From NCBI GenBank assembly GCA_037783545.1, contig JBBELK010000488.1, forward strand, positions 62,001 through 126,000: a stretch of DNA of 64,000 bases. The letters are read 5' to 3'. The position numbers and the translations under genes are program-made. This DNA is from Henricia sp. BOLD:AAB3569 (lineage: Eukaryota; Echinodermata; Asteroidea; Spinulosida; Echinasteridae). Shown here one piece after another: positions 5,811-28,815 of the stretch (position 1 is the first letter of the stretch; the number at the start of each line of letters is the position of its first letter). The notes beneath the pieces are model-generated. The model saw nothing but the letters and a program-made list of their open reading frames with translations, was not told the DNA's origin and did not search any database.

Positions 5811-8800
5811 TTGCTCCCGCAACCTGTGGCTGTCTGTACACACCTCTTTGGTGTACTCCTGACTCGTGCGCATGCTCAGTCCTTCGGACTGTCGTTGACA
5901 CGGCCCAGTTTGGGACGGGATTTTGGTCAAAGTGTGGTCCAAACGTCGGCAAATTTGGAGGTCGAAAAATGTTCCGACGAACTTCAAATTTTGCTTGTGA
6001 GGGGAAAACAACAATTTTTCCATCGGAAATTTCTAAAAGCACCAATTCCTTATTATTCAAACTCGTCTGCTACTTTCCGCGTGGAGATTTTGGTATCCGG
6101 TGACATTGACCCAAATCCTGGCCCTGAATCAACTAATACTTCTGACTACCACACTACCACCACTGAGTTGAAGTCATACTCTCGCAGCAAGCTCCTTGAT
6201 CTGCGTACTTCTCCATTTTCGAATGCCACATCTCTGTCACAATCAGTACTGACCCTGCTAAGAAACCTTAGAATTAGTGCTACATGTACTCCAACCTGCA
6301 TATACCAGCCTACACATCGAGGCAAGAAGGCTGGTCGCCGTCGGGCAGTTGGAAAACCTCCATCTGCTAGAGATTTACCCCAGTATGTCTCATCATCATC
6401 ACCTACATGTAAAAACACAAGTCTTAGTTTTTGTGTTTTGAATGCGCAGTCTATCTGCAACAAGACGAATGAATTTGTCGACTTGGTACTTCAAAATAAT
6501 CATGATTTAGTTGCTGTATCAGAGACGTGGCTCAAACCAGACGACGACTTGATAGCTCGCGAGTGCACCCCAGATGGTTACCTTTTTCATCATATACCCA
6601 GACCCCACAAGACAGGTGGAGGTGTTGCTCTACTTTACAGATCTACGTTGGGTGTCTGCATGAAAAATGATAACGCGAACTATGCAACTTTTGAATCTCT
6701 CCATGTGGAGATAACTGGTAATTCCAATTCTGTTCGCATGGTAGTCATCTATCGTCCGGAAAGAGACATCCATGGACAACATGTGTGTTTTTCCACTTTT
6801 TTGCATGAATTTGAGAACTTGATCACACAATATCTCCTCCACCCATCCGAAGTCATATTCGCTGGCGACTTCAACATCCATGTTGACGATATGTCCAACA
6901 CCAATGCAAAACAGTTTCAGTATTTGCTCTCATCGTACGGTCTCGTCCAACACATTCATGAGCCAACTCATCGACTTGGACATTGTCTCGATTTGGTGAT
7001 AACGCGTGAGAATGTCACACCTATAATCTCAAATATTAAAATCCACCCTGGACTTTCGGACCACTATGCGATCATGGGCTACGTTGGCTTTAAGAAGCCA
7101 CCCCTCCCAACTATGACTTTGAAAACTCGGCGATGGCGTAATATCAATATCACTGCCTTCTGTCATGATATTGAAACATCTCTATCGAACATCGACCTCG
7201 GCACTGATGACCTTGAAGCTTGTGTTGAAGAGTATGAATGCATGGTACGTGAAAATGTGGACAAACATGCTCCACAGGTAACACGATCCATCAAGATTCG
7301 ACCGGGACCACGTTGGTTTGATGATGACATCCGAGCAGCACGGAAAATTCGCCGTCAGCTTGAACGGAGGTGGCGTGCCAATGGCAAGCAAGAGGCTGAT
7401 CGGCAGAGCTTTCGCCAGCAATGTAATGTTGTGAACGTCATGATCAACCAAGCGAAAGTGAGTCACTATTCAACACAGGTGCAACAAAGCTCTGGTGACC
7501 AGAAAAAGCTGTTCAGGGTAATCGACAAGCTGTTGCACAAGCCTAAGTCCCCGGTCCTTCCATCCTCACAATCTGACCAGGACCTTGCAAATGCATTTTC
7601 AAATTATTTTGTCAACAAGATTACGAACATCCGATCCTCATTGATGCCAGTGTCCAACTCCGTCCCACTAGTTCAGCCACATGCGGATCCCAACTGCAGA
7701 CTCTCTAATTTTGAGCCAACCAATGTTAACGAAATTAAGCGTGTCATCATGAACTCGCCATCAAAATCCTGCGAACTTGACCCTATTCCAACTATGATGA
7801 TAAAGCAACACATTGATGTGTTTGCTCCTTTTATTACCGAGGTGGTCAACACATCGTTGGACTCGGGTTGCTTCCCAGACAACCTAAAAGTCTCCTACAT
7901 TCGGCCACTTCTGAAGAAGCCCAGCCTGGACAAGGAGATTCTGAAAAACTACAGACCCGTCTCAAACCTGAAGTACCTGGGGAAAATCATCGAGCGTATT
8001 GTCTCATCCCGCATCTCTGACCACATTCAAGACCATGAGCTTTCGGACGTTTTCCAGTCTGCATATAAGCCATTCCACGGGACGGAAGTTGCGCTTGTTC
8101 GGGTCAGTAATGATATCCTGTCCGCAATGGATAATGGTGATATCACTGCGCTAGTTATGCTTGATTTGAGTGCAGCATTCGATACCGTTGATCATGGCAT
8201 CCTCGTATCTCGACTTAAGAACTATCTCGGTATACACGGCACGGCTCTCGAATGGTGCAGGTCCTATCTATCAAATAGAACCCAGCATGTCCGCATTGGC
8301 AATGCAATATCAGATCCTGTTGTTTTAGAGTACTCTGTACCACAAGGGTCTGTGCTAGGCCCACAGTGGTTTACTCTTTATACCTTGCCAATTCGTGATA
8401 TCATCTTGAAACATCATCTGAACTACCACGTCTATGCAGATGATACTCAACTCTACATAACCTTCAAGTCTTCGCAGGAGCCTGCCGATTCTTCTATTGC
8501 AAGACTGGAACAATGCATCTCCGAGATCCGATGCTGGATGAAAAACAACTTTCTAAAGCTAAATGAGGAAAAAACGGAGTTTCTCTTGTTTGGATCACGC
8601 CAACAATTAACAAAGGTGTCTGTGCCATTTATTACAATTGGTGATGCACAGATAGCCCCATCGTTGCAGGCCCGGAACTTGGGGGTTATATTTGATTCAG
8701 CAATGACATTTACACCTCACGTCGCTAACACTGTCCGTTCGGCATCATTCCAAATTAGAAACATTGGTCGTATACGCAAGTATTTGAATAGAAGTGCCAC

Positions 8801-9284
8801 CGAGCAAATCATCCATGCATTTGTGACTTCACGACTAGACAACGGCAATTCACTACTCTACGGACTCCCTCAGAATCAAATATACCGTCTTCAACGTCTT
8901 CAGAATACCGCTGCCCGCATCATCACCTTATCCAGGAGGAACTGTCACATCACCCCCATTTTGAAGGAACTACACTGGCTTCCTGTCTCCCAAAGGATTA
9001 TTTTCAAACTCATGCTTCTGGTCCACAAAGCTCTCAACAACAAGGCTCCCTACTACATTAAGGAACTACTACATGAATATTCTCCAGCAAGAACTCTTAG
9101 ATCAAGTAACCAGCAACTTCTGAAGGAACCAAATTCTAAGCGAACATGGGGCGCCAGATCTTTTTCTGTTGCAGCTCCTCGACTTTGGAATTCATTGCCA
9201 CTTGACCTCAGATCATGCCACTGTACAACTAGGTTCAAATCACTTCTAAAAACTTACTTGATGTCGCAAATTTTCGAGAATTAA
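5811..9284 (+). CDS. LINE copy 1 ORF: 2A-like leader, APE endonuclease, reverse transcriptase
   Basis: An open frame of 1,157 codons; the last ~1,095 belong to the LINE and the first ~61 to the satellite. It encodes the element's endonuclease/reverse transcriptase, which nicks target DNA and copies the element RNA there. Visible motifs (residues counted from 5811): 2A-like DIDPNPGP at 98-105; endonuclease N211 (NAQS), E238 (SETW), D353/N355 (GDFN) and D417/H418 (SDH); RT D785/D791 (LDLSAAFD), PQGSVLGP, and YADD at 875-878; then the HWLPV region and a C-terminal tail ending at TAA 9282-9284. No RNase H domain is seen. There is no in-frame ATG between the upstream stop (TAG 5781-5783) and the ATG at 6660 inside the endonuclease, so this copy has no conventional start. 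The frame offset relative to copies 2, 4 and 5 comes from the satellite A-run near 5784-5792. All catalytic residues are intact. Confidence 0.85.
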   Translation: MLPQPVAVCTHLFGVLLTRAHAQSFGLSLTRPSLGRDFGQSVVQTSANLEVEKCSDELQILLVRGKQQFFHRKFLKAPIPYYSNSSATFRVEILVSGDIDPNPGPESTNTSDYHTTTTELKSYSRSKLLDLRTSPFSNATSLSQSVLTLLRNLRISATCTPTCIYQPTHRGKKAGRRRAVGKPPSARDLPQYVSSSSPTCKNTSLSFCVLNAQSICNKTNEFVDLVLQNNHDLVAVSETWLKPDDDLIARECTPDGYLFHHIPRPHKTGGGVALLYRSTLGVCMKNDNANYATFESLHVEITGNSNSVRMVVIYRPERDIHGQHVCFSTFLHEFENLITQYLLHPSEVIFAGDFNIHVDDMSNTNAKQFQYLLSSYGLVQHIHEPTHRLGHCLDLVITRENVTPIISNIKIHPGLSDHYAIMGYVGFKKPPLPTMTLKTRRWRNINITAFCHDIETSLSNIDLGTDDLEACVEEYECMVRENVDKHAPQVTRSIKIRPGPRWFDDDIRAARKIRRQLERRWRANGKQEADRQSFRQQCNVVNVMINQAKVSHYSTQVQQSSGDQKKLFRVIDKLLHKPKSPVLPSSQSDQDLANAFSNYFVNKITNIRSSLMPVSNSVPLVQPHADPNCRLSNFEPTNVNEIKRVIMNSPSKSCELDPIPTMMIKQHIDVFAPFITEVVNTSLDSGCFPDNLKVSYIRPLLKKPSLDKEILKNYRPVSNLKYLGKIIERIVSSRISDHIQDHELSDVFQSAYKPFHGTEVALVRVSNDILSAMDNGDITALVMLDLSAAFDTVDHGILVSRLKNYLGIHGTALEWCRSYLSNRTQHVRIGNAISDPVVLEYSVPQGSVLGPQWFTLYTLPIRDIILKHHLNYHVYADDTQLYITFKSSQEPADSSIARLEQCISEIRCWMKNNFLKLNEEKTEFLLFGSRQQLTKVSVPFITIGDAQIAPSLQARNLGVIFDSAMTFTPHVANTVRSASFQIRNIGRIRKYLNRSATEQIIHAFVTSRLDNGNSLLYGLPQNQIYRLQRLQNTAARIITLSRRNCHITPILKELHWLPVSQRIIFKLMLLVHKALNNKAPYYIKELLHEYSPARTLRSSNQQLLKEPNSKRTWGARSFSVAAPRLWNSLPLDLRSCHCTTRFKSLLKTYLMSQIFEN
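6072..6125 (+). other. 2A-like ribosome-skipping motif, LINE copy 1
   Basis: The last residues are GDIDPNPGP (GDIDPNPG|P would be the separation point), preceded by a hydrophobic, helix-prone stretch (FRVEILVS). The family consensus is DxExNPGP; here the E is a D. 2A-like peptides are established near the N-terminus of ORFs of some APE-type non-LTR retrotransposons of invertebrates and trypanosomes. Activity with this D substitution is not known from the sequence. Confidence 0.7.
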
Positions 9285-9302
9285 TTACTTGTTGTTGTTA
9301 AC

Positions 9303-9374
9303 AGCGCCTTGAGCACCCTGCAGGGTGGATATGTGCGCTTTACAAATCTCATTATTATTATTATTATTATTATT
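9303..9374 (+). other. LINE copy 1 3' end: hairpin and (ATT)8 tail
   Basis: After the stop at 9284 comes a ~65-bp 3' UTR. AGCGC (9303-9307) can pair with GCGCT (9335-9339), enclosing the perfect palindrome CACCCTGCAGGGTG (9314-9327). The (ATT)8 tail is 9351-9374. In CR1/L2-type elements the 3' hairpin and short tandem tail are where the reverse transcriptase recognises the RNA and primes; here that role is inferred. Confidence 0.7.
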
Positions 9375-9967
9375 ATGCTCCAAAGACTCTATATTGCGCA
9401 CTTGTCCTAAAAAATTGACAGACTTTCGCCGGGAAATGGCAGAGAAATTTCAGAGTTTAGAAAAAAAAGGGGTTGGCGCTTCCTGGATGCTCCCGCAACC
9501 TGTGGCTGTCTGTACACACCTCTTTGGTGTACTCCTGAATCGTGCGCATGCTCAGTCCTTCGGACTGTCGTTGACACGGCCCAGTTTGGGACGGGATTTT
9601 GGTCAAAGTGTGGTCCAAACGTCGGTAAATTTGGAGGTCGAAAAATGTTCCGACGAACTTCAAATTTTGCATGCTCCAAAGACTCTATATTGCGCACTTG
9701 TCCTAAAACATTGACAGACTTTCGCCCGGGAAATGGCAGAGAAATTTCAGAGTTTAGAAAAAAAAGGGGTTGGCGCTTCCTGGATGCTCCCGCAACCTGT
9801 GGCTGTCTGTACACACCTCTTTGGTGTACTCCTGACTCGTGCGCATGCTCAGTCCTTCGGACTGTCGTTGACACGGCCCAGTTTGGGACGGGATTTTGGT
9901 CAAAGTGTGGTCCAAACGTCGGCAAATTTGGAGGTCGAAAAATGTTCCGACGAACTTCAAATTTTGC
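9375..9967 (+). repeat. Two satellite monomers between LINE 1 and LINE 2 (593 bp)
   Basis: It starts mid-monomer at ATGCTCC and ends mid-monomer at TTTTGC, so it is exactly two monomer lengths in phase (296 + 297). It has diagnostic variants: CCTGAATCGTG, GTCGGTAAAT, CCTAAAACATTG and an extra C giving CGCCCGGGAAATGG. The first two marks recur at 13348-13940, and most of the set recurs at 24843-25435. It holds the ATG at 9733 that opens the fused frame of LINE copy 2. Confidence 0.95.
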
Positions 9968-12900
9968 TTGTGAGGGGAAAACAACAATTTTTCCATCGGA
10001 AATTTCTAAAAGCACCAATTCCTTATTATTCAAACTCGTCTGCTACTTTCCGCGTGGAGATTTTGGTATCCGGTGACATTGACCCAAATCCTGGCCCTGA
10101 ATCAACTAATACTTCTGACTACCACACTACCACCACTGAGTTGAAGTCATACTCTCGCAGCAAGCTCCTTGATCTGCGTACTTCTCCATTTTCGAATGCC
10201 ACATCTCTGTCACAATCAGTACTGACCCTGCTAAGAAACCTTAGAATTAGTGCTACATGTACTCCAACCTGCATATACCAGCCTACACATCGAGGCAAGA
10301 AGGCTGGTCGCCGTCGGGCAGTTGGAAAACCTCCATCTGCTAGAGATTTACCCCAGTATGTCTCATCATCATCACCTACATGTAAAAACACAAGTCTTAG
10401 TTTTTGTGTTTTGAATGCGCAGTCTATCTGCAACAAGACGAATGAATTTGTCGACTTGGTACTTCAAAATAATCATGATTTAGTTGCTGTATCAGAGACG
10501 TGGCTCAAACCAGACGACGACTTGATAGCTCGCGAGTGCACCCCAGATGGTTACCTTTTTCATCATATACCCAGACCCCACAAGACAGGTGGAGGTGTTG
10601 CTCTACTTTACAGATCTACGTTGGGTGTCTGCATGAAAAATGATAACGCGAACTATGCAACTTTTGAATCTCTCCATGTGGAGATAACTGGTAATTCCAA
10701 TTCTGTTCGCATGGTAGTCATCTATCGTCCGGAAAGAGACATCCATGGACAACATGTGTGTTTTTCCACTTTTTTGCATGAATTTGAGAACTTGATCACA
10801 CAATATCTCCTCCACCCATCCGAAGTCATATTCGCTGGCGACTTCAACATCCATGTTGACGATATGTCCAACACCAATGCAAAACAGTTTCAGTATTTGC
10901 TCTCATCGTACGGTCTCGTCCAACACATTCATGAGCCAACTCATCGACTTGGACATTGTCTCGATTTGGTGATAACGCGTGAGAATGTCACACCTATAAT
11001 CTCAAATATTAAAATCCACCCTGGACTTTCGGACCACTATGCGATCATGGGCTACGTTGGCTTTAAGAAGCCACCCCTCCCAACTATGACTTTGAAAACT
11101 CGGCGATGGCGTAATATCAATATCACTGCCTTCTGTCATGATATTGAAACATCTCTATCGAACATCGACCTCGGCACTGATGACCTTGAAGCTTGTGTTG
11201 AAGAGTATGAATGCATGGTACGTGAAAATGTGGACAAACATGCTCCACAGGTAACACTATCCATCAAGATTCGACCGGGACCACGTTGGTTTGATGATGA
11301 CATCCGAGCAGCACGGAAAATTCGCCGTCAGCTTGAACGGAGGTGGCGTGCCAATGGCAAGCAAGAGGCTGATCGGCAGAGCTTTCGCCAGCAATGTAAT
11401 GTTGTGAACGTCATGATCAACCAAGCGAAAGTGAGTCACTATTCAACACAGGTGCAACAAAGCTCTGGTGACCAGAAAAAGCTGTTCAGGGTAATCGACA
11501 AGCTGTTGCACAAGCCTAAGTCCCCGGTCCTTCCATCCTCACAATCTGACCAGGACCTTGCAAATGCATTTTCAAATTATTTTGTCAACAAGATTACGAA
11601 CATCCGATCCTCATTGATGCCAGTGTCCAACTCCGTCCCACTAGTTCAGCCACATGCGGATCCCAACTGCAGACTCTCTAATTTTGAGCCAACCAATGTT
11701 AACGAAATTAAGCGTGTCATCATAAACTCGCCATCAAAATCCTGCGAACTTGACCCTATTCCAACTATGATGATAAAGCAACACATTGATGTGTTTGCTC
11801 CTTTTATTACCGAGGTGGTCAACACATCGTTGGACTCGGGTTGCTTCCCAGACAACCTAAAAGTCTCCTACATTCGGCCACTTCTGAAGAAGCCCAGCCT
11901 GGACAAGGAGATTCTGAAAAACTACAGACCCGTCTCAAACCTGAAGTACCTGGGGAAAATCATCGAGCGTATTGTCTCATCCCGCATCTCTGACCACATT
12001 CAAGACCATGAGCTTTCGGACGTTTTCCAGTCTGCATATAAGCCATTCCACGGGACGGAAGTTGCGCTTGTTCGGGTCAGTAATGATATCCTGTCCGCAA
12101 TGGATAATGGTGATATCACAGCGCTAGTTATGCTTGATTTGAGTGCAGCATTCGATACCGTTGATCATGGCATCCTCGTATCTCGACTTAAGAACTATCT
12201 CGGTATACACGGCACGGCTCTCGAATGGTGCAGGTCCTATCTATCAAATAGAACCCAGCATGTCCGCATTGGCAATGCAATATCAGATCCTGTTGTTTTA
12301 GAGTACTCTGTACCACAAGGGTCTGTGCTAGGCCCACAGTGGTTTACTCTTTATACCTTGCCAATTCGTGATATCATCTTGAAACATCATCTGAACTACC
12401 ACGTATATGCAGATGATACTCAACTCTACATAACCTTCAAGTCTTCGCAGGAGCCTGCCGATTCTTCTATTGCAAGACTGGAACAATGCATCTCCGAGAT
12501 CCGATGCTGGATGAAAAACAACTTTCTAAAGCTAAATGAGGAAAAAACGGAGTTTCTCTTGTTTGGATCACGCCAACAATTAACAAAGGTGTCTGTGCCA
12601 TTTATTACAATTGGTGATGCACAGATAGCCCCATCGTTGCAGGCCCGGAACTTGGGGGTTATATTTGATTCAGCAATGACATTTACACCTCACGTCGCTA
12701 ACACTGTCCGTTCGGCATCATTCCAAATTAGAAACATTGGTCGTAAACGCAAGTATTTGAATAGAAGTGCCACCGAGCAAATCATCCATGCATTTGTGAC
12801 TTCACGACTAGACAACGGCAATTCACTACTCTACGGACTCCCTCAGAATCAAATATACCGTCTTCAACGTCTTCAGAATACCGCTGCCCGCATCATCACC

Positions 12901-13257
12901 TTATCCAGGAGGAACTGTCACATCACCCCCATTTTGAAGGAACTACACTGGCTTCCTGTCTCCCAAAGGATTATTTTCAAACTCATGCTTCTGGTCCACA
13001 AAGCTCTCAACAACAAGGCTCCCTACTACATTAAGGAACTACTACATGAATATTCTCCAGCAAGAACTCTTAGATCAAGTAACCAGCAACTTCTGAAGGA
13101 ACCAAATTCTAAGCGAACATGGGGCGCCAGATCTTTTTCTGTTGCAGCTCCTCGACTTTGGAATTCATTGCCACTTGACCTCAGATCATGCCACTGTACA
13201 ACTAGGTTCAAATCACTTCTAAAAACTTACTTGATGTCGCAAATTTTCGAGAATTAA
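9733..13257 (+). CDS. LINE copy 2 ORF fused to satellite start: 2A-like, endonuclease, reverse transcriptase (1,174 aa)
   Basis: The frame starts at a genuine ATG (ATGGCAGAG) in the satellite monomer, runs 78 codons through satellite and continues without a break into the LINE frame. The 2A-like motif ends at 10098, after residue 122. If it worked, it would release a ~121-residue leader from the ~1,052-residue endonuclease/RT. Endonuclease motifs (NAQS, SETW, GDFN, SDH) and RT motifs (LDLSAAFD, PQGSVLGP, YADD at 892-895) are intact. Private changes are R to L at 11258, M to I at 11724 and I to K at 12746, none in a catalytic residue. Whether the satellite ATG is used, or any promoter exists, is not shown by the sequence. 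Confidence 0.85.
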   Translation: MAEKFQSLEKKGVGASWMLPQPVAVCTHLFGVLLTRAHAQSFGLSLTRPSLGRDFGQSVVQTSANLEVEKCSDELQILLVRGKQQFFHRKFLKAPIPYYSNSSATFRVEILVSGDIDPNPGPESTNTSDYHTTTTELKSYSRSKLLDLRTSPFSNATSLSQSVLTLLRNLRISATCTPTCIYQPTHRGKKAGRRRAVGKPPSARDLPQYVSSSSPTCKNTSLSFCVLNAQSICNKTNEFVDLVLQNNHDLVAVSETWLKPDDDLIARECTPDGYLFHHIPRPHKTGGGVALLYRSTLGVCMKNDNANYATFESLHVEITGNSNSVRMVVIYRPERDIHGQHVCFSTFLHEFENLITQYLLHPSEVIFAGDFNIHVDDMSNTNAKQFQYLLSSYGLVQHIHEPTHRLGHCLDLVITRENVTPIISNIKIHPGLSDHYAIMGYVGFKKPPLPTMTLKTRRWRNINITAFCHDIETSLSNIDLGTDDLEACVEEYECMVRENVDKHAPQVTLSIKIRPGPRWFDDDIRAARKIRRQLERRWRANGKQEADRQSFRQQCNVVNVMINQAKVSHYSTQVQQSSGDQKKLFRVIDKLLHKPKSPVLPSSQSDQDLANAFSNYFVNKITNIRSSLMPVSNSVPLVQPHADPNCRLSNFEPTNVNEIKRVIINSPSKSCELDPIPTMMIKQHIDVFAPFITEVVNTSLDSGCFPDNLKVSYIRPLLKKPSLDKEILKNYRPVSNLKYLGKIIERIVSSRISDHIQDHELSDVFQSAYKPFHGTEVALVRVSNDILSAMDNGDITALVMLDLSAAFDTVDHGILVSRLKNYLGIHGTALEWCRSYLSNRTQHVRIGNAISDPVVLEYSVPQGSVLGPQWFTLYTLPIRDIILKHHLNYHVYADDTQLYITFKSSQEPADSSIARLEQCISEIRCWMKNNFLKLNEEKTEFLLFGSRQQLTKVSVPFITIGDAQIAPSLQARNLGVIFDSAMTFTPHVANTVRSASFQIRNIGRKRKYLNRSATEQIIHAFVTSRLDNGNSLLYGLPQNQIYRLQRLQNTAARIITLSRRNCHITPILKELHWLPVSQRIIFKLMLLVHKALNNKAPYYIKELLHEYSPARTLRSSNQQLLKEPNSKRTWGARSFSVAAPRLWNSLPLDLRSCHCTTRFKSLLKTYLMSQIFEN
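10045..10098 (+). other. 2A-like ribosome-skipping motif, LINE copy 2
   Basis: Same DIDPNPGP motif and upstream hydrophobic stretch as copy 1. Here it lies between a satellite-encoded leader that starts at an ATG and the endonuclease. Confidence 0.7.
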
Positions 13258-13275
13258 TTACTTGTTGTTGTTAAC

Positions 13276-13347
13276 AGCGCCTTGAGCACCCTGCAGGGTG
13301 GATATGTGCGCTTTACAAATCTCATTATTATTATTATTATTATTATT
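13276..13347 (+). other. LINE copy 2 3' end: hairpin and (ATT)8 tail
   Basis: AGCGC/GCGCT outer stem around the CACCCTGCAGGGTG palindrome, followed by eight ATT units ending at 13347. The sequence and tail length equal those of copy 1. Confidence 0.7.
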
Positions 13348-13940
13348 ATGCTCCAAAGACTCTATATTGCGCACTTGTCCTAAAAAATTGACAGACTTTC
13401 GCCGGGAAATGGCAGAGAAATTTCAGAGTTTAGAAAAAAAAGGGGTTGGCGCTTCCTGGATGCTCCCGCAACCTGTGGCTGTCTGTACACACCTCTTTGG
13501 TGTACTCCTGAATCGTGCGCATGCTCAGTCCTTCGGACTGTCGTTGACACGGCCCAGTTTGGGACGGGATTTTGGTCAAAGTGTGGTCCAAACGTCGGTA
13601 AATTTGGAGGTCGAAAAATGTTCCGACGAACTTCAAATTTTGCATGCTCCAAAGACTCTATATTGCGCACTTGTCCTAAAACATTGACAGACTTTCGCCC
13701 GGGAAATGGCAGAGAAATTTCAGAGTTTAGAAAAAAAAGGGGTTGGCGCTTCCTGGATGCTCCCGCAACCTGTGGCTGTCTGTACACACCTCTTTGGTGT
13801 ACTCCTGACTCGTGCGCATGCTCAGTCCTTCGGACTGTCGTTGACACGGCCCAGTTTGGGACGGGATTTTGGTCAAAGTGTGGTCCAAACGTCGGCAAAT
13901 TTGGAGGTCGAAAAATGTTCCGACGAACTTCAAATTTTGC
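13348..13940 (+). repeat. Two satellite monomers between LINE 2 and LINE 3 (593 bp)
   Basis: The same two-monomer spacer as 9375-9967, including CCTGAATCGTG, GTCGGTAAAT, CCTAAAACATTG and CGCCCGGG. It contains the ATG at 13706 that would open the copy 3 frame. Confidence 0.95.
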
Positions 13941-17230: not shown

Positions 17231-17248
17231 TTACTTGTTGTTGTTAAC

Positions 17249-17320
17249 AGCGCCTTGAGCACCCTGCAGGGTGGATATGTGCGCTTTACAAATCTCATTA
17301 TTATTATTATTATTATTATT
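17249..17320 (+). other. LINE copy 3 3' end: hairpin and (ATT)8 tail
   Basis: Same outer stem, CACCCTGCAGGGTG palindrome and eight ATT units as in the other copies. Confidence 0.7.
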
Positions 17321-18476: not shown

Positions 18477-19364
18477 ATGTTCCGACGAACTTCAAATTTT
18501 GCATGCTCCAAAGACTCTATATTGCGCACTTGTCCTAAAAAATTGACAGACTTTCGCCTGGAAATGGCAGAGAAATTTCAGAGTTTAGAAAAAAAGGGGG
18601 TTGGCGCTTCCTGGATGCTCCCGCAACCTGTGGCTGTCTGTACACACCTCTTTGGTGTACTCCTGACTCGTGCGCATGCTAAGTCCTTCGGACTGTCGTT
18701 GACACGGCCCAGTTTGGGACGGGATTTTGGTGAAAGTGTGGTCCAAACGTCGGCAAATTTGGAGGTCGAAAAATTTTCCGACGAACTTCAAATTTTGCAT
18801 GCTCCAAAGACTCTATATTGCGCACTTGTCCTAAAAAAATGACAGACTTTCGCCGGGAAATGGCAGAGAAATTTCAGAGTTTAGAAAAAAAAGGGGTTGG
18901 CGCTTCCTGGATGCTCCCGCAACCTGTGGCTGTCTGTACACACCTCATTGGTGTACTCCTGACTCGTGCGCATGCTCAGTCCTTCGGACTGTCGTTGACA
19001 CGGCCCAGTTTGGGACGGGATTTTGGTCAAAGTGTGGTCCAAACGTCGGCAAATTTGGAGGTCGAAAAATGTTCCGACGAACTTCAAATTGTGCATGCTC
19101 CAAAGACTCTATATTGCGCACTTGTCCTAAAAAATTGACAGACTTTCGCCGGGAAATGGCAGAGAAAGTTCAGAGTTTAGAAAAAAAAAGGGGTTGGCGC
19201 TTCCTGGATGCTCTCGCAACCTGTGGCTGTCTGTACACACCTCTTTGGTGTACTCCTGACTCGTGCGCATGCTCAGTCCTTCGGACTGTCGTTGACACGG
19301 CCCAGTTTGGGACGGGATTTTGGTCAAAGTGTGGTCCAAACGTCGGCAAATTTGGAGGTCGAAA
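18477..19364 (+). repeat. 3-monomer higher-order unit, type B (about 888 bp)
   Basis: Three consecutive monomers carry ordered marks: GCTAAGTCC with CGCCTGGAAATGG; then AAAAAAATGACAG with CACCTCATTGG; then GAGAAAGTTCAG. The same ordered trio recurs at 29973-30860 and, in related form, at 33229-34116 and 34117-35004. Confidence 0.75.
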
Positions 19365-19505
19365 AATGTTCCGACGAACTTCAAATTTTGCATGCTCCAA
19401 AGACTCTATATTGCGCACTTGTCATAAAAAATTGACAGACTTTCGCCGGGAAATGGCAGAGAAATTTCAGAGTTTAGAAAAAAAAGGGGTTGGCGCTTCC
19501 TCGAT

Positions 19506-19724
19506 GCTCCCGCAACCTGTGGCTGTCTGTACACACCTCTTTGGTGTACTCCTGACTCGTGCGCATGCTCAGTCCTTCGGACTGTCGTTGACACGGCCCA
19601 GTTTGGGACGGGATTTTAGTCAAAGTGTGGTCCAAACGTCGGCAAATTTGGAGGTCGAAAAATGTTCCGACGAACTTCAAATTTTGCATGCTCCAAAGAC
19701 TCTATATTGCGCACTTGTCCTAAA
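19506..19724 (+). other. Recombination junction between two long duplicated blocks
   Basis: The last mark shared with the block after LINE 5 is CCTCGATGC near 19,500 (partner near 30,996). The first mark shared with the block before LINE 1 is CCTAAACAATTG near 19,720 (partner near 4,253). The interval between is too uniform to place the exchange more exactly. This is what an unequal crossover between monomers in register would leave. Confidence 0.75.
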
Positions 19725-21140
19725 CAATTGACAGACTTTCGCCGGGAAATGGCAGATAAATTTCAGAGTTTAGAAAAAAAGGGGTTGGCGCTTCCTGGAT
19801 ATTCCCGCAACCTGTGGCTGTCTGTACACACCTATTTGGTGTACTCCTGACTCGTGCGCATGCTCAGTCCTTCGGACTGTCGTTGACACGGCTCAGTTTG
19901 GGACGGGATTTTGGTCAAAGTGTGGTCCAAACGTCGGCAAATTTTGAGGTCGAAAAATGTTCCGACGAACTTCAAATTTTGCATGCTCCAAAGACTCTAT
20001 ATTGCGCACTTGTCCTAAAAAATTGACAGACTTTCGCCGGGAAATGGCAGAGAAATTTCAGAGTTTAGAAAAAAAAGGGGTTGGCGCTTCCTGGATGCTC
20101 CCGCAACCTGTGGCTGTCTGTACACACCTCTTTGGTGTACTCCTGACTCGTGCGCATGCTCAGTCCTTCGGACTGTCGTTGACACGGCCCAGTTTGGGAC
20201 GGGATTTTGGTCAAAGTGTGGTCCAAACGTCGGCAAATTTGGAGGTCGAAAAATGTTCCGACGAACTTCAAATTTTGCATGCTCCAAAGACTCTATATTG
20301 CGCACTTGTCCTAAAAAATTGACAGACTTTCGCCGGGAAATGGCAGAGAAATTTTAGAGTTTAGAAAAAAAAGGGGTTGGCGCTTCCTGGATGCTCCCGC
20401 CACCTGTGGCTGTCTGTACACACCTCTTTGGTGTACTCCTGACTCGTGCGCATGCTCAGTCCTTCGGACTGTCGTTGACACGGCCCAGTTTGGGACGGGA
20501 TTTTGGTCAAAGTGTGGTCCAAACGTCGGCAAATTTGGAGGTCGAAAAATGTTCCGACGAACTTCAAATTTTGCATGCTCCAAAGACTCTATATTGCGCA
20601 CTTGTCCTAACAAATTGACAGACTTTCGCCGGGAAATGGCAGAGAAATTTCAGAGTTTAGAAAAAAAAGGGGTTGGCGCTTCCTGGTTGCTCCCGCAACC
20701 TGTGGCTGTATGTACACACCTCTTTGGTGTACTCCTGACTCGTGCGCATACTCAGTCCTTCGGACTGTCGTTGACACGGCCCAGTTTGGGACGGGATTTT
20801 GGTCAAAGTGTGGTCCAAACGTCGGTAAATTTGGAGGTTGAAAAATGTTCCGACGAACTTCAAATTTTGCATGCTCCAAAGACTCTATATTGCGCACTTG
20901 TCCTAAAAAATTGACAGACTTTCGCCGGGAAATGGCAGAGAAATTTCAGAGTTTAGAAAAAAAAGGGGTTGGCGCTTCCTGGATGCTCCCGCAACCTGTG
21001 GCTGTCTGTACACACCTCTTTGGTGTACTCCTGACTCGTGCGCATGCTCAGTCCTTCGGACTGTCGTTGACACGGCCCAGTTTGGGACGGGATTTTGGTC
21101 AAAGTGTGGTCCAAACGTCGGCAAATTTGGAGGTCGAAAA

Positions 21141-24100
21141 ATGTTCCGACGAACTTCAAATTTTGCATGCTCCAAAGACTCTATATTGCGCACTTGTCCT
21201 AACAAATTGACAGACTTTCGCCGGGAAATGGCAGAGAAATTTCAGAGTTTAGAAAAAAAAGGGGTTGGCGCTTCCTGGTTGCTCCCGCAACCTGTGGCTG
21301 TCTGTACACACCTCTTTGGTGTACTCCTGACTCGTGCGCATGCTCAGTCCTTCGGACTGTCGTTGACACGGCCCAGTTTGGGACGGGATTTTGGTCAAAG
21401 TGTGGTCCAAACGTCGGCAAATTTGGAGGTCGAAAAATGTTCCGACGAACTTCAAATTTTGCTTGTGAGGGGAAAACAACAATTTTTCCATCGGAAATTT
21501 CTAAAAGCACCAATTCCTTATTATTCAAACTCGTCTGCTACTTTCCGCGTGGAGATTTTGGTATCCGGTGACATTGACCCAAATCCTGGCCCTGAATCAA
21601 CTAATACTTCTGACTACCACACTACCACCACTGAGTTGAAGTCATACTCTCGCAGCAAGCTCCTTGATCTGCGTACTTCTCCATTTTCGAATGCCACATC
21701 TCTGTCACAATCAGTACTGACCCTGCTAAGAAACCTTAGAATTAGTGCTACATGTACTCCAACCTGCATATACCAGCCTACACATCGAGGCAAGAAGGCT
21801 GGTCGCCGTCGGGCAGTTGGAAAACCTCCATCTGCTAGAGATTTACCCCAGTATGTCTCATCATCATCACCTACATGTAAAAACACAAGTCTTAGTTTTT
21901 GTGTTTTGAATGCGCAGTCTATCTGCAACAAGACGAATGAATTTGTCGACTTGGTACTTCAAAATAATCATGATTTAGTTGCTGTATCAGAGACGTGGCT
22001 CAAACCAGACGACGACTTGATAGCTCGCGAGTGCACCCCAGATGGTTACCTTTTTCATCATATACCCAGACCCCACAAGACAGGTGGAGGTGTTGCTCTA
22101 CTTTACAGATCTACGTTGGGTGTCTGCATGAAAAATGATAACGCGAACTATGCAACTTTTGAATCTCTCCATGTGGAGATAACTGGTAATTCCAATTCTG
22201 TTCGCATGGTAGTCATCTATCGTCCGGAAAGAGACATCCATGGACAACATGTGTGTTTTTCCACTTTTTTGCATGAATTTGAGAACTTGATCACACAATA
22301 TCTCCTCCACCCATCCGAAGTCATATTCGCTGGCGACTTCAACATCCATGTTGACGATATGTCCAACACCAATGCAAAACAGTTTCAGTATTTGCTCTCA
22401 TCGTACGGTCTCGTCCAACACATTCATGAGCCAACTCATCGACTTGGACATTGTCTCGATTTGGTGATAACGCGTGAGAATGTCACACCTATAATCTCAA
22501 ATATTAAAATCCACCCTGGACTTTCGGACCACTATGCGATCATGGGCTACGTTGGCTTTAAGAAGCCACCCCTCCCAACTATGACTTTGAAAACTCGGCG
22601 ATGGCGTAATATCAATATCACTGCCTTCTGTCATGATATTGAAACATCTCTATCGAACATCGACCTCGGCACTGATGACCTTGAAGCTTGTGTTGAAGAG
22701 TATGAATGCATGGTACGTGAAAATGTGGACAAACATGCTCCACAGGTAACACGATCCATCAAGATTCGACCGGGACCACGTTGGTTTGATGATGACATCC
22801 GAGCAGCACGGAAAATTCGCCGTCAGCTTGAACGGAGGTGGCGTGCCAATGGCAAGCAAGAGGCTGATCGGCAGAGCTTTCGCCAGCAATGTAATGTTGT
22901 GAACGTCATGATCAACCAAGCGAAAGTGAGTCACTATTCAACACAGGTGCAACAAAGCTCTGGTGACCAGAAAAAGCTGTTCAGGGTAATCGACAAGCTG
23001 TTGCACAAGCCTAAGTCCCCGGTCCTTCCATCCTCACAATCTGACCAGGACCTTGCAAATGCATTTTCAAATTATTTTGTCAACAAGATTACGAACATCC
23101 GATCCTCATTGATGCCAGTGTCCAACTCCGTCCCACTAGTTCAGCCACATGCGGATCCCAACTGCAGACTCTCTAATTTTGAGCCAACCAATGTTAACGA
23201 AATTAAGCGTGTCATCATGAACTCGCCATCAAAATCCTGCGAACTTGACCCTATTCCAACTATGATGATAAAGCAACACATTGATGTGTTTGCTCCTTTT
23301 ATTACCGAGGTGGTCAACACATCGTTGGACTCGGGTTGCTTCCCAGACAACCTAAAAGTCTCCTACATTCGGCCACTTCTGAAGAAGCCCAGCCTGGACA
23401 AGGAGATTCTGAAAAACTACAGACCCGTCTCAAACCTGAAGTACCTGGGGAAAATCATCGAGCGTATTGTCTCATCCCGCATCTCTGACCACATTCAAGA
23501 CCATGAGCTTTCGGACGTTTTCCAGTCTGCATATAAGCCATTCCACGGGACGGAAGTTGCGCTTGTTCGGGTCAGTAATGATATCCTGTCCGCAATGGAT
23601 AATGGTGATATCACTGCGCTAGTTATGCTTGATTTGAGTGCAGCATTCGATACCGTTGATCATGGCATCCTCGTATCTCGACTTAAGAACTATCTCGGTA
23701 TACACGGCACGGCTCTCGAATGGTGCAGGTCCTATCTATCAAATAGAACCCAGCATGTCCGCATTGGCAATGCAATATCAGATCCTGTTGTTTTAGAGTA
23801 CTCTGTACCACAAGGGTCTGTGCTAGGCCCACAGTGGTTTACTCTTTATACCTTGCCAATTCGTGATATCATCTTGAAACATCATCTGAACTACCACGTC
23901 TATGCAGATGATACTCAACTCTACATAACCTTCAAGTTTTCGCAGGAGCCTGCCGATTCTTCTATTGCAAGACTGGAACAATGCATCTCCGAGATCCGAT
24001 GCTGGATGAAAAACAACTTTCTAAAGCTAAATGAGGAAAAAACGGAGTTTCTCTTGTTTGGATCACGCCAACAATTAACAAAGGTGTCTGTGCCATTTAT

Positions 24101-24752
24101 TACAATTGGTGATGCACAGATAGCCCCATCGTTGCAGGCCCGGAACTTGGGGGTTATATTTGATTCAGCAATGACATTTACACCTCACGTCGCTAACACT
24201 GTCCGTTCGGCATCATTCCAAATTAGAAACATTGGTCGTATACGCAAGTATTTGAATAGAAGTGCCACCGAGCAAATCATCCATGCATTTGTGACTTCAC
24301 GACTAGACAACGGCAATTCACTACTCTACGGACTCCCTCAGAATCAAATATACCGTCTTCAACGTCTTCAGAATACCGCTGCCCGCATCATCACCTTATC
24401 CAGGAGGAACTGTCACATCACCCCCATTTTGAAGGAACTACACTGGCTTCCTGTCTCCCAAAGGATTATTTTCAAACTCATGCTTCTGGTCCACAAAGCT
24501 CTCAACAACAAGGCTCCCTACTACATTAAGGAACTACTACATGAATATTCTCCAGCAAGAACTCTTAGATCAAGTAACCAGCAACTTCTGAAGGAACCAA
24601 ATTCTAAGCGAACATGGGGCGCCAGATCTTTTTCTGTTGCAGCTCCTCGACTTTGGAATTCATTGCCACTTGACCTCAGATCATGCCACTGTACAACTAG
24701 GTTCAAATCACTTCTAAAAACTTACTTGATGTCGCAAATTTTCGAGAATTAA
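21141..24752 (+). CDS. LINE copy 4 ORF fused to satellite start: 2A-like, endonuclease, reverse transcriptase (1,203 aa)
   Basis: The frame opens at a satellite ATG (21141); a second in-frame ATG at 21228 equals the start used for copies 2 and 5. About 107 satellite codons lead into the LINE frame. The 2A-like motif ends at 21593. Endonuclease motifs (NAQS, SETW, GDFN, SDH) and RT motifs (LDLSAAFD, PQGSVLGP, YADD at residues 921-924) are intact, and the C-terminus ends at the usual TAA (24750-24752). The only amino-acid difference noted from copy 1 is S to F at 23938, two positions before conserved QEP and not catalytic. On sequence alone this is the least altered of the copies with an ATG. 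Confidence 0.87.
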   Translation: MFRRTSNFACSKDSILRTCPNKLTDFRREMAEKFQSLEKKGVGASWLLPQPVAVCTHLFGVLLTRAHAQSFGLSLTRPSLGRDFGQSVVQTSANLEVEKCSDELQILLVRGKQQFFHRKFLKAPIPYYSNSSATFRVEILVSGDIDPNPGPESTNTSDYHTTTTELKSYSRSKLLDLRTSPFSNATSLSQSVLTLLRNLRISATCTPTCIYQPTHRGKKAGRRRAVGKPPSARDLPQYVSSSSPTCKNTSLSFCVLNAQSICNKTNEFVDLVLQNNHDLVAVSETWLKPDDDLIARECTPDGYLFHHIPRPHKTGGGVALLYRSTLGVCMKNDNANYATFESLHVEITGNSNSVRMVVIYRPERDIHGQHVCFSTFLHEFENLITQYLLHPSEVIFAGDFNIHVDDMSNTNAKQFQYLLSSYGLVQHIHEPTHRLGHCLDLVITRENVTPIISNIKIHPGLSDHYAIMGYVGFKKPPLPTMTLKTRRWRNINITAFCHDIETSLSNIDLGTDDLEACVEEYECMVRENVDKHAPQVTRSIKIRPGPRWFDDDIRAARKIRRQLERRWRANGKQEADRQSFRQQCNVVNVMINQAKVSHYSTQVQQSSGDQKKLFRVIDKLLHKPKSPVLPSSQSDQDLANAFSNYFVNKITNIRSSLMPVSNSVPLVQPHADPNCRLSNFEPTNVNEIKRVIMNSPSKSCELDPIPTMMIKQHIDVFAPFITEVVNTSLDSGCFPDNLKVSYIRPLLKKPSLDKEILKNYRPVSNLKYLGKIIERIVSSRISDHIQDHELSDVFQSAYKPFHGTEVALVRVSNDILSAMDNGDITALVMLDLSAAFDTVDHGILVSRLKNYLGIHGTALEWCRSYLSNRTQHVRIGNAISDPVVLEYSVPQGSVLGPQWFTLYTLPIRDIILKHHLNYHVYADDTQLYITFKFSQEPADSSIARLEQCISEIRCWMKNNFLKLNEEKTEFLLFGSRQQLTKVSVPFITIGDAQIAPSLQARNLGVIFDSAMTFTPHVANTVRSASFQIRNIGRIRKYLNRSATEQIIHAFVTSRLDNGNSLLYGLPQNQIYRLQRLQNTAARIITLSRRNCHITPILKELHWLPVSQRIIFKLMLLVHKALNNKAPYYIKELLHEYSPARTLRSSNQQLLKEPNSKRTWGARSFSVAAPRLWNSLPLDLRSCHCTTRFKSLLKTYLMSQIFEN
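21540..21593 (+). other. 2A-like ribosome-skipping motif, LINE copy 4
   Basis: Identical DIDPNPGP motif and upstream context to copy 1, in frame with an upstream satellite ATG. Confidence 0.7.
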
Positions 24753-24770
24753 TTACTTGTTGTTGTTAAC

Positions 24771-24842
24771 AGCGCCTTGAGCACCCTGCAGGGTGGATAT
24801 GTGCGCTTTACAAATCTCATTATTATTATTATTATTATTATT
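24771..24842 (+). other. LINE copy 4 3' end: hairpin and (ATT)8 tail
   Basis: Same paired AGCGC/GCGCT, central 14-bp palindrome and eight ATT units. Confidence 0.7.
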
Positions 24843-25435
24843 ATGCTCCAAAGACTCTATATTGCGCACTTGTCCTAAAAAATTGACAGACTTTCGCCGG
24901 GAAATGGCAGAGAAATTTCAGAGTTTAGAAAAAAAAGGGGTTGGCGCTTCCTGGATGCTCCCGCAACCTGTGGCTGTCTGTACACACCTCTTTGGTGTAC
25001 TCCTGACTCGTGCGCATGCTCAGTCCTTCGGACTGTCGTTGACACGGCCCAGTTTGGGACGGGATTTTGGTCAAAATGTGGTCCAAACGTCGGTAAATTT
25101 GGAGGTCGAAAAATGTTCCGACGAACTTCAAATTTTGCATGCTCCAAAGACTCTATATTGCGCACTTGTCCTAAAACATTGACAGACTTTCGCCCGGGAA
25201 ATGGCAGAGAAATTTCAGAGTTTAGAAAAAAAAGGGGTTGGCGCTTCCTGGATGCTCCCGCAACCTGTGGCTGTCTGTACACACCTCTTTGGTGTACTCC
25301 TGACTCGTGCGCATGCTCAGTCCTTCGGACTGTCGTTGACACGGCCCAGTTTGGGACGGGATTTTGGTCAAAGTGTGGTCCAAACGTCGGCAAATTTGGA
25401 GGTCGAAAAATGTTCCGACGAACTTCAAATTTTGC
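24843..25435 (+). repeat. Two satellite monomers between LINE 4 and LINE 5 (593 bp)
   Basis: Same spacer type as 9375-9967 (GTCGGTAAAT, CCTAAAACATTG, CGCCCGGG), but with the standard CCTGACTCGTG and a private CAAAATGTGG. The ATG at 25201 opens the copy 5 frame. Confidence 0.95.
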
Positions 25436-28400
25436 TTGTGAGGGGAAAACAACAATTTTTCCATCGGAAATTTCTAAAAGCACCAATTCCTTATTATTCA
25501 AACTCGTCTGCTACTTTCCGCGTGGAGATTTTGGTATCCGGTGACATTGACCCAAATCCTGGCCCTGAATCAACTAATACTTCTGACTACCACACTACCA
25601 CCACTGAGTTGAAGTCATACTCTCGCAGCAAGCTCCTTGATCTGCGTACTTCTCCATTTTCGAATGCCACATCTCTGTCACAATCAGTACTGACCCTGCT
25701 AAGAAACCTTAGAATTAGTGCTACATGTACTCCAACCTGCATATACCAGCCTACACATCGAGGCAAGAAGGCTGGTCGCCGTCGGGCAGTTGGAAAACCT
25801 CCATCTGCTAGAGATTTACCCCAGTATGTTTCATCATCATCACCTACATGTAAAAACACAAGTCTTAGTTTTTGTGTTTTGAATGCGCAGTCTATCTGCA
25901 ACAAGACGGATGAATTTGTCGACTTGGTACTTCAAAATAATCATGATTTAGTTGCTGTATCAGAGACGTGGCTCAAACCAGACGACGACTTGATAGCTCG
26001 CGAGTGCACCCCAGATGGTTACCTTTTTCATCATATACCCAGACCCCACAAGACAGGTGGAGGTGTTGCTCTACTTTACAGATCTACGTTGGGTGTCTGC
26101 ATGAAAAATGATAACGCGAACTATGCAACTTTTGAATCTCTCCATGTGGAGATAACTGGTAATTCCAATTCTGTTCGCATGGTAGTCATCTATCGTCCGG
26201 AAAGAGACATCCATGGACAACATGTGTGTTTTTCCACTTTTTTGCATGAATTTGAGAACTTGATCACACAATATCTCCTCCACCCATCCGAAGTCATATT
26301 CGCTGGCGACTTCAACATCCATGTTGACGATATGTCCAACACCAATGCAAAACAGTTTCAGTATTTGCTCTCATCGTACGGTCTCGTCCAACACATTCAT
26401 GAGCCAACTCATCGACTTGGACATTGTCTCGATTTGGTGATAACGCGTGAGAATGTCACACCTATAATCTCAAATATTAAAATCCACCCTGGACTTTCGG
26501 ACCACTATGCGATCATGGGCTACGTTGGCTTTAAGAAGCCACCCCTCCCAACTATGACTTTGAAAACTCGGCGATGGCGTAATATCAATATCACTGCCTT
26601 CTGTCATGATATTGAAACATCTCTATCGAACATCGACCTCGGCACTGATGACCTTGAAGCTTGTGTTGAAGAGTATGAATGCATGGTACGTGAAAATGTG
26701 GACAAACATGCTCCACAGGTAACACGATCCATCAAGATTCGACCGGGACCACGTTGGTTTGATGATGACATCCGAGCAGCACGGAAAATTCGCCGTCAGC
26801 TTGAACGGAGGTGGCGTGCCAATGGCAAGCAAGAGGCTGATCGGCAGAGCTTTCGCCAGCAATGTAATGTTGTGAACGTCATGATCAACCAAGCGAAAGT
26901 GAGTCACTATTCAACACAGGTGCAACAAAGCTCTGGTGACCAGAAAAAGCTGTTCAGGGTAATCGACAAGCTGTTGCACAAGCCTAAGTCCCCGGTCCTT
27001 CCATCCTCACAATCTGACCAGGACCTTGCAAATGCATTTTCAAATTATTTTGTCAACAACATTACGAACATCCGATCCTCATTGATGCCAGTGTCCAACT
27101 CCGTCCCACTAGTTCAGCCACATGCGGATCCCAACTGCAGACTCTCTAATTTTGAGCCAACCAATGTTAACGAAATTAAGCGTGTCATCATGAACTCGCC
27201 ATCAAAATCCTGCGAACTTGACCCTATTCCAACTATGATGATAAAGCAACACATTGATGTGTTTGCTCCTTTTATTACCGAGGTGGTCAACACATCGTTG
27301 GACTCGGGTTGCTTCCCAGACAACCTAAAAGTCTCCTACATTCGGCCACTTCTGAAGAAGCCCAGCCTGGACAAGGAGATTCTGAAAAACTACAGACCCG
27401 TCTCAAACCTGAAGTACCTGGGGAAAATCATCGAGCGTATTGTCTCATCCCGCATCTCTGACCACATTCAAGACCATGAGCTTTCGGACGTTTTCCAGTC
27501 TGCATATAAGCCATTCCACGGGACGGAAGTTGCGCTTGTTCGGGTCAGTAATGATATCCTGTCCGCAATGGATAATGGTGATATCACTGCGCTAGTTATG
27601 CTTGATTTGAGTGCAGCATTCGATACCGTTGATCATGGCATCCTCGTATCTCGACTTAAGAACTATCTCGGTATACACGGCACGGCTCTCGAATGGTGCA
27701 GGTCCTATCTATCAAATATAACCCAGCATGTCCGCATTGGCAATACAATATCAGATCCTGTTGTTTTAGAGTACTCTTTACCACAAGGGTCTGTGCTAGG
27801 CCCACAGTGGTTTACTCTTTATACCTTGCCAATTCGTGATATCATCTTGAAACATCATCTGAACTACCACGTCTATGCAGATGATACTCAACTCTACATA
27901 ACCTTCAAGTCTTCGCAGGAGCCTGCCGATTCTTCTATTGCAAGACTGGAACAATGCATCTCCGAGATCCGATGCTGGATGAAAAACAACTTTCTAAAGC
28001 TAAATGAGGAAAAAACGGAGTTTCTCTTGTTTGGATCACGCCAACAATTAACAAAGGTGTCTGTGCCATTTATTACAATTGGTGATGCACAGATAGCCCC
28101 ATCGTTGCAGGCCCGGAACTTGGGGGTTATATTTGATTCAGCAATGACATTTACACCTCACGTCGCTAACACTGTCCGTTCGGCATCATTCCAAATTAGA
28201 AACATTGGTCGTATACGCAAGTATTTGAATAGAAGTGCCACCGAGCAAATCATCCATGCATTTGTGACTTCACGACTAGACAACGGCAATTCACTACTCT
28301 ACGGACTCCCTCAGAATCAAATATACCGTCTTCAACGTCTTCAGAATACCGCTGCCCGCATCATCACCTTATCCAGGAGGAACTGTCACATCACCCCCAT

Positions 28401-28725
28401 TTTGAAGGAACTACACTGGCTTCCTGTCTCCCAAAGGATTATTTTCAAACTCATGCTTCTGGTCCACAAAGCTCTCAACAACAAGGCTCCCTACTACATT
28501 AAGGAACTACTACATGAATATTCTCCAGCAAGAACTCTTAGATCAAGTAACCAGCAACTTCTGAAGGAACCAAATTCTAAGCGAACATGGGGCGCCAGAT
28601 CTTTTTCTGTTGCAGCTCCTCGACTTTGGAATTCATTGCCACTTGACCTCAGATCATGCCACTGTACAACTAGGTTCAAATCACTTCTAAAAACTTACTT
28701 GATGTCGCAAATTTTCGAGAATTAA
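25201..28725 (+). CDS. LINE copy 5 ORF fused to satellite start: 2A-like, endonuclease, reverse transcriptase (1,174 aa)
   Basis: The ATG at 25201 (ATGGCAGAG, satellite) leads through 78 satellite codons into an uninterrupted LINE frame. The 2A-like motif ends at 25566. Endonuclease motifs (NAQS, SETW, GDFN, SDH) and RT YADD (892-895) are intact. It shares with copy 3 N to D after NKT, R to I before TQHV, and V to L just before PQGSVLGP in the RT core. The V to L change is conservative but lies beside a conserved motif, so its effect is uncertain. Private changes are K to N (27060) and A to T (27745). Copy 3's stop codon is absent here. Confidence 0.86.
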   Translation: MAEKFQSLEKKGVGASWMLPQPVAVCTHLFGVLLTRAHAQSFGLSLTRPSLGRDFGQSVVQTSANLEVEKCSDELQILLVRGKQQFFHRKFLKAPIPYYSNSSATFRVEILVSGDIDPNPGPESTNTSDYHTTTTELKSYSRSKLLDLRTSPFSNATSLSQSVLTLLRNLRISATCTPTCIYQPTHRGKKAGRRRAVGKPPSARDLPQYVSSSSPTCKNTSLSFCVLNAQSICNKTDEFVDLVLQNNHDLVAVSETWLKPDDDLIARECTPDGYLFHHIPRPHKTGGGVALLYRSTLGVCMKNDNANYATFESLHVEITGNSNSVRMVVIYRPERDIHGQHVCFSTFLHEFENLITQYLLHPSEVIFAGDFNIHVDDMSNTNAKQFQYLLSSYGLVQHIHEPTHRLGHCLDLVITRENVTPIISNIKIHPGLSDHYAIMGYVGFKKPPLPTMTLKTRRWRNINITAFCHDIETSLSNIDLGTDDLEACVEEYECMVRENVDKHAPQVTRSIKIRPGPRWFDDDIRAARKIRRQLERRWRANGKQEADRQSFRQQCNVVNVMINQAKVSHYSTQVQQSSGDQKKLFRVIDKLLHKPKSPVLPSSQSDQDLANAFSNYFVNNITNIRSSLMPVSNSVPLVQPHADPNCRLSNFEPTNVNEIKRVIMNSPSKSCELDPIPTMMIKQHIDVFAPFITEVVNTSLDSGCFPDNLKVSYIRPLLKKPSLDKEILKNYRPVSNLKYLGKIIERIVSSRISDHIQDHELSDVFQSAYKPFHGTEVALVRVSNDILSAMDNGDITALVMLDLSAAFDTVDHGILVSRLKNYLGIHGTALEWCRSYLSNITQHVRIGNTISDPVVLEYSLPQGSVLGPQWFTLYTLPIRDIILKHHLNYHVYADDTQLYITFKSSQEPADSSIARLEQCISEIRCWMKNNFLKLNEEKTEFLLFGSRQQLTKVSVPFITIGDAQIAPSLQARNLGVIFDSAMTFTPHVANTVRSASFQIRNIGRIRKYLNRSATEQIIHAFVTSRLDNGNSLLYGLPQNQIYRLQRLQNTAARIITLSRRNCHITPILKELHWLPVSQRIIFKLMLLVHKALNNKAPYYIKELLHEYSPARTLRSSNQQLLKEPNSKRTWGARSFSVAAPRLWNSLPLDLRSCHCTTRFKSLLKTYLMSQIFEN
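25513..25566 (+). other. 2A-like ribosome-skipping motif, LINE copy 5
   Basis: Same DIDPNPGP motif; the codon after it is GAA (25567), so the frame continues, unlike in sister copy 3. Confidence 0.7.
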
Positions 28726-28743
28726 TTACTTGTTGTTGTTAAC

Positions 28744-28815
28744 AGCGCCTTGAGCACCCTGCAGGGTGGATATGTGCGCTTTACAAATCTCATTATTATT
28801 ATTATTATTATTATT
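28744..28815 (+). other. LINE copy 5 3' end: hairpin and (ATT)8 tail
   Basis: Same hairpin sequence and eight ATT units as in copies 1-4. Confidence 0.7.

Follow-up and report, generated by a model that had tools for sequence, protein, structure and literature searches.

The five LINE copies that lie in a 296-bp satellite array in the window, i.e. the whole stretch of 64,000 nucleotides analysed here (C488:62001-126000 of an assembly of 740.7 Mb in 2,104 contigs), are best explained by one insertion of an APE-type LINE that was subsequently multiplied as cargo of the satellite by recombination between the monomers. We assign a probability of about 0.86 to this explanation, which is based on the assembled sequence; that the LINE was inserted once and then multiplied as DNA together with its satellite is strongly supported. 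The satellite array fills the window, with the five LINE copies and three copies of a SINE-like element as its interruptions. The LINE-bearing region and its surroundings are composed as follows.

1..5994 (+): left-hand part of the 296-bp satellite array, before the LINEs
4215..5994 (+): six monomers 5' of copy 1; in-register counterpart 5' of copy 4 at 19683-21462
5995..9374 (+): LINE copy 1, A type, 5'-truncated, 1095-codon frame, first Met at codon 222
9375..9967 (+): spacer between copies 1 and 2, two monomers, identical to the spacer between copies 2 and 3
9968..13347 (+): LINE copy 2, A type
13348..13940 (+): spacer between copies 2 and 3, two monomers
13941..17320 (+): LINE copy 3, B type, stop at codon 44
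17321..21462 (+): 14-monomer spacer between copies 3 and 4; its first 8 monomers are similar, in register, to those following copy 5, its last 6 to those preceding copy 1
21463..24842 (+): LINE copy 4, A type
24843..25435 (+): spacer between copies 4 and 5, two monomers
25436..28815 (+): LINE copy 5, B type
28816..31178 (+): eight monomers 3' of copy 5; in-register counterpart 3' of copy 3 at 17321-19682
28816..64000 (+): right-hand part of the 296-bp satellite array, beyond the LINEs, broken by the three SINE copies

As the initial annotation had claimed, all five copies share their length of 3,380 bp, their first and last bases, an (ATT)8 tail and the same target base, the insertion point in the 296-bp monomer being ...CAAATTTTGC / ATGCTCC... 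in every case. The claimed spacings were likewise recovered, with start-to-start distances of 3,973, 3,973, 7,522 (between copies 3 and 4) and 3,973 bp, which correspond to the LINE plus 2, 2, 14 and 2 monomers, respectively. The copies differ pairwise by 1-14 substitutions and thus do not represent a single sequence pasted five times. The exact 24-base target sequence occurs 122 times empty and five times LINE-filled in the window. No Rfam matches up to E = 1 were obtained for positions 1-12000, the part of the window that was searched. A 29-base word of the satellite had no exact counterpart in viral_contigs or genome_contigs, and the COX1 matches contain 11 internal TGA codons.

The frame of 1,095 codons contains an Exo_endo_phos (4.3e-16) and an RVT_1 domain (2.4e-29; values for copy 1), and copies 2, 4 and 5 gave similar results; the domain scan covered these four window copies, copy 3 being left out because of its stop codon. 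Four of the five matches in a comparison with PDB entries represent LINE-1 ORF2 (E values of 2e-9 to 3.7e-9). The element is an APE-type non-LTR retrotransposon, or LINE, with endonuclease and reverse transcriptase in one frame, and may be CR1/L2-like. A genome search, in which 40 of 854 first-look candidates were scored, 41 matches listed and 20 loci fetched, yielded 13 loci outside contigs C488 and C1415, which serve here as the other copies for comparison; a 33-base word from the 3' end of the LINE occurs 217 times in the genome with up to one mismatch. Two hallmarks of LINEs are present: the copies are truncated at different 5' positions, and they end in a tail of simple repeats, which consists of 2-10 ATT units in the 13 other copies. 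The LINE of the window array is a young element, and target bases were neither duplicated nor lost at its founder insertion. Near its start, the frame carries the motif GDIDPNPGP. APE-type non-LTR retrotransposons bearing 2A sequences have reportedly been described by Odon in 2013; like these, the LINE of the window has an EN-RT frame and, near the N-terminus, an NPGP motif, whereas the window copies have lost the leader and the start codon. N-terminal 2A signal sequences are described in PMC4981915, and GDIDPNPGP, as a putative 2A motif, fits the description given there.

Evidence for a single insertion comes from the 5' junction of the LINE. A 28-base pattern across this junction, allowing up to two mismatches, occurs at seven places in the genome, all of them free of mismatches, with five in C488 and two in C1415; use of the same site outside such arrays was not found with this pattern. 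In addition, the variants 1883A, 2276A and 3128G are present in all seven array copies and in none of the 13 others, and the tails comprise eight ATT units in all seven, while three of the other 13 also have eight units and two are interrupted. Note that these 13 rows represent only about nine insertions, since L015-L018 have a junction in common in C238, and L010 and L011 differ at one of 6,380 bases. The single insertion proposed in the initial annotation is therefore strongly supported, by the junction count, the common diagnostic substitutions, the tail length and the flanking monomers described below.

The seven copies fall into two types, as judged from diagnostic variants. With W1-W5 denoting window copies 1-5 and X1 and X2 the two copies of C1415, 474A defines the A type (W1, W2, W4 and X1), and 2284T together with 2343T the B type (W3, W5 and X2). 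The order of types along the runs is A-A-B, A-B and A-B, with B as the last copy of each run. Private substitutions occur in six of the seven copies, including the stop codon of copy 3, and the first copy of C1415 carries a 7-bp insertion. Units 1 and 2, each taken as LINE plus spacer, differ by five substitutions in 3,973 positions, as compared with a mean of 3.93 per 296 positions between random monomers. The monomers around the copies are also related in register: the six monomers upstream of copies 1 and 4 have 12 of 14 rare variants in common, and the eight monomers downstream of copies 3 and 5 share 18 of 24. These values were reached by none of 103 and none of 99 other runs of the window (the best ones sharing 2 and 6, respectively), whereas a mismatched control shared one of 14 rare variants, a value reached by 33 of 103 runs; this test was based on 141 of 151 pieces. 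With a rougher cut and 297 of 403 pieces taken from C488 and C1415, the shared variants numbered 9 of 11 and 13 of 25, each value being reached by none of 5,000 random runs, while the control value was reached by 749 of 5,000.

The composite unit had been regarded as a higher-order repeat that arose by unequal crossover. The former term is apt insofar as the units are more alike than the monomers, but the runs comprise only three, two and two copies, with no more than three 3,973-bp units in succession, and seven junctions in two contigs do not make the LINE unit a genome-wide composite satellite. Unequal crossover is retained as the presumed route of the later steps, but sits less well with the first doubling. 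Between the monomers of the spacer and those of the outer flanks, 3-5 substitutions are counted per 296 bp, hardly fewer than between random monomers with their mean of 3.93 (46% of random pairs show three or fewer differences). Since the spacer monomers are near-random relative to the outer flanks, although the deduced A and B founders differ at only three of 3,380 positions, a simple local sister exchange is disfavoured for this step; the data agree better with an exchange between arrays that had diverged before, or with gene conversion into a neighbouring monomer.

The following order of events would account for these features. The founder would have inserted between two bases of one 296-bp monomer, presumably through target-primed reverse transcription, which would have ended about 449 bp before the 5' end was reached. 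The second step would be the doubling to an A copy and a B copy separated by two monomers, probably through exchange between diverged arrays or ectopic gene conversion. This A-B pair may then have been duplicated together with about six monomers on one side and eight on the other, and have come to be present on C1415 as well, before a unit of one LINE plus two monomers was duplicated to give copies 1, 2 and 3; these later steps would be due to unequal exchange. All multiplication after the founder event would thus proceed by recombination between satellite monomers, without retrotransposition, and the LINE would be a passive cargo of the satellite.

Contig C1415 provides a second view of the same arrangement, since it carries an A-B pair with matching flanks and was assembled separately. 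The neighbours of its LINEs are those seen in C488 with small differences, including missing monomers. Words of 61 bases that are unique in both contigs form 26 shared runs, of which 13 are colinear and located either close to the LINEs or at a distance of 7-12 kb on the downstream side of copy 5, while the rest are scattered. The SINE-b series of C1415 had no match in C488. C1415 represents either the other allele or a duplicated array.

The identical target base in all seven copies might also be taken to indicate a LINE that targets this position of the satellite and inserted there several times. Such repeated insertion should hardly yield the same 5' truncation and the same tail in all seven copies. 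Moreover, a 38-base word of the satellite was counted 176,395 times in the genome, indicating a satellite content of no less than 52 Mb, or 7% of the assembly, assuming one such word per monomer, and only seven junctions are filled. The flanks of eight of the 13 other copies have no satellite match at all, and the remaining five, in C238 and C473, lie elsewhere in related satellites and in the opposite orientation relative to the 296-bp unit. A site-specific LINE was rejected on these grounds, i.e. the absence of independent insertions at one target and the use of other sites in C238 and C473, and retains hardly any probability.

Two further explanations concern the way in which the units came about. 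Rolling-circle copying of a small excised circle of LINE plus two monomers, followed by reinsertion as a tandem run, would readily produce copies 1 to 3, which are tandem 3,973-bp units with two identical spacers. However, it would not explain why the duplication of the larger block preserves different flanks on either side in register, why the longest run consists of three units, or why A and B copies with their separate private changes alternate, and we consider it unlikely. The repeated units might instead have been created by the assembler: the structure is taken from the assembly, and the near-identical stretch of L010 and L011 in two contigs may reflect redundancy. An assembler should not invent the private substitutions, the stop codon of copy 3 or the 7-bp insertion in C1415, nor should it place an A-B pair with matching flanks in a separately assembled contig; an artefact was accordingly rejected as the likeliest reading and appears very improbable. 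Multiplication of one inserted LINE by exchange between satellite monomers is therefore preferred.

The array copies lack about 449 bp of 5' LINE sequence. All 13 copies fetched from outside C488 and C1415 extend 5' of the first base of the window copies; compared with L012, this 5' stretch matches over 449-450 bp in nine of 12 copies and over 248, 113 and 68 bp in L008, L009 and L019, respectively. In 10 of the 13, it contains an in-frame ATG and a hydrophobic run (MDKHFLFI...), followed by the NPGP motif; this start is missing in the truncated L009 and L019 and altered in L014. None of the window copies contains the stretch with the start codon, and the first Met of their frame is codon 222. 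Not all of the other copies are intact either, as five of the 13 show at least one stop in a straight-through frame. The substitutions acquired in the array after the founder comprise 22 distinct changes, of which five are synonymous, 16 alter an amino acid and one creates a stop, as compared with a synonymous share of 23% expected without selection. Nine other copies, of which two belong to the arrays in C238 and C473, show 32 synonymous changes among 63 substitutions, a difference that is significant at p = 0.026 (Fisher test), albeit with small numbers. The substitutions of the array LINEs fit neutrality and a spread by means other than retrotransposition.

The description of the LINE as a coding-competent element had to be abandoned, because the stretch with the start codon is gone in every array copy, codon 44 of copy 3 is a stop and the substitutions fit neutrality; lacking the 5' ATG, the window copies in their present form are not competent for coding. 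A coding-competent element maintained by selection was rejected in view of the missing 5' stretch and a substitution pattern consistent with neutrality. The satellite sequence 5' of copies 2, 3, 4 and 5 contains an in-frame ATG with a stop-free passage into the LINE frame, which is absent at copy 1 and may well be due to chance. It is highly improbable that the satellite replaces the truncated part in such a way that its ATG would drive the LINE frame and the 2A motif would release a satellite-coded leader; if this were true, an N-terminal 2A sequence would allow such a LINE, once truncated at its 5' end, to tolerate foreign leaders. Read in this way, translation of copy 3 would end just after the motif, while copy 1 lacks an ATG of this kind.

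The same process is apparent elsewhere in the genome. In C238, the same LINE with its full 5' stretch is found in a related 258-bp satellite, with one junction present at five places, all within this contig, and about 14 target bases lost. Its spacings there are not whole numbers of 258-bp monomers, and the array includes other units, e.g. one of 419 bp. A third insertion, in a 279-bp satellite of C473, shows one junction at two places and a loss of about nine target bases. The SINE-like element of the window is represented by three copies.

35880..36172 (+): SINE-like element copy 1, CAA tail, tRNA-like B box (by eye), 11-13 bp target duplication
36778..37068 (+): second copy of this SINE insertion
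38559..38849 (+): third copy of this SINE insertion

ARAGORN detected no tRNA gene in this region (35500-39000). All three copies are located at one satellite base, and their junction occurs 225 times in the genome with up to two mismatches, the 100 places listed being distributed over 14 contigs. Of 78 spacings in eight contigs, taken from the places listed, 62 equal, to within a tenth of a monomer, the length of one SINE and a whole number of monomers, whereas 16 do not. As judged from the shared junction, these 225 occurrences would go back to one insertion, and the SINE unit is closer to a genome-wide composite satellite than the LINE unit (225 versus seven junctions). A second SINE insertion, four bases away, accounts for 16 junctions in C191, C1415 and C1443; the genome contains 1,994 occurrences of a 27-base SINE word in total.

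Single junctions present in 2, 5, 7, 16 and 225 copies in one genome may be regarded as stepwise fossils of a retroposon joining a satellite. The inserted element serves as a long, apparently neutral tag of satellite exchanges, which plain monomers show less well, and the copy number of retroposons inside satellites need not mirror transposition.

Some precedents for such composite structures exist. The bovine 1.711b satellite carries an insert. This insert is not mentioned in the part of PMC4763316 available to us, and a search of open-licence papers on retrotransposons amplified with satellites (including PMC8122249) revealed no closer case than the four that follow. Sobo of Solanum bulbocastanum is described in PMC8091179 as a compound, homogenised satellite with a 4.7-kb monomer; it likewise unites a retrotransposon fragment with a tandem repeat in one amplified unit, whereas the LINE unit reported here forms a small local run within a much larger ordinary array, and its steps can be ordered. 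For CUS-TR24 of Cuscuta europaea, whose arrays also contain LINEs (L1-CS), the authors of the same text favour repeated targeted insertion and consider a compound unit unlikely, which is the opposite of the multiplied single insertion proposed here. The human endogenous retroviruses K111 and K222 have been proposed to spread through (peri)centromeric repeats by recombination or gene conversion (PMC4425911), and in this proposed spread of an insertion in a repeat they resemble the present case. They are proviruses on many chromosomes, whereas the LINE considered here is 5'-truncated and multiplied in two contigs; in scale, the SINE with its 225 junctions is nearer to them than the LINE. On ape sex chromosomes, composite repeats that are annotated separately from the canonical ones are also tandem composite units, with an origin from one LINE in a satellite left unstated in the accessible part of PMC11168930. 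Since compound satellites such as Sobo and the spread of K111 and K222 have already been described, this kind of event is already known; the present example shows it with unusually clear steps and in several independent cases in one genome.

The 296-bp satellite appears, on the evidence of a shared junction and of the spacings between copies, to have taken up a SINE with an apparent tRNA-like B box and a CAA tail as a unit, and on a scale far above that of the LINE. The copies in the window are:

35880-36172, SINE copy in the satellite
36778-37068, SINE copy in the satellite
38559-38849, SINE copy in the satellite

Genome-wide, the SINE junction was found at 225 places in a search allowing up to 2 mismatches, and 62 of the 78 intervals examined, taken from the junction places listed, correspond to whole monomers; on another contig, C498, four intervals in succession measure 1,185-1,186 bp. 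A second SINE insertion lies 4 bases from the site of the first on contig C1415 (L021-L035) and occurs 16 times genome-wide, including eight copies in the following series:

C1415 13099-30294, copy series of the second SINE insertion

The same contig carries two inverted partial SINE copies (36639 and 39209), plus a single one at 77885. Within its array, 634 bp (109837-110470) are without a satellite match, the first 400 bases of which contain short internal repeats.

The LINE of the window is itself present as two more insertions, located in related satellites:

C238:286118-337730, related 258-bp satellite, one junction at 5 places
C473:72869-85231, related 279-bp satellite, one junction at 2 places

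In the window, the satellite also carries a reading frame with an ATG:

9712-9970, satellite frame; equivalents upstream of LINE copies 3, 4 and 5

This frame runs unbroken into the LINE frame in copies 2-5, and copy 3 has a stop immediately after the 2A-like NPGP motif.

Among the other contigs, L010 (C411) and L011 (C189) show one difference over 6,380 bases; the pair could be redundant haplotype contigs, or the stretch could have been duplicated recently. COX1 matches occur once in C2104 and three times in C955, there spaced exactly 16,221 bases apart; either the assembly has strung a mitochondrial genome into a concatemer, or the multimer is real.
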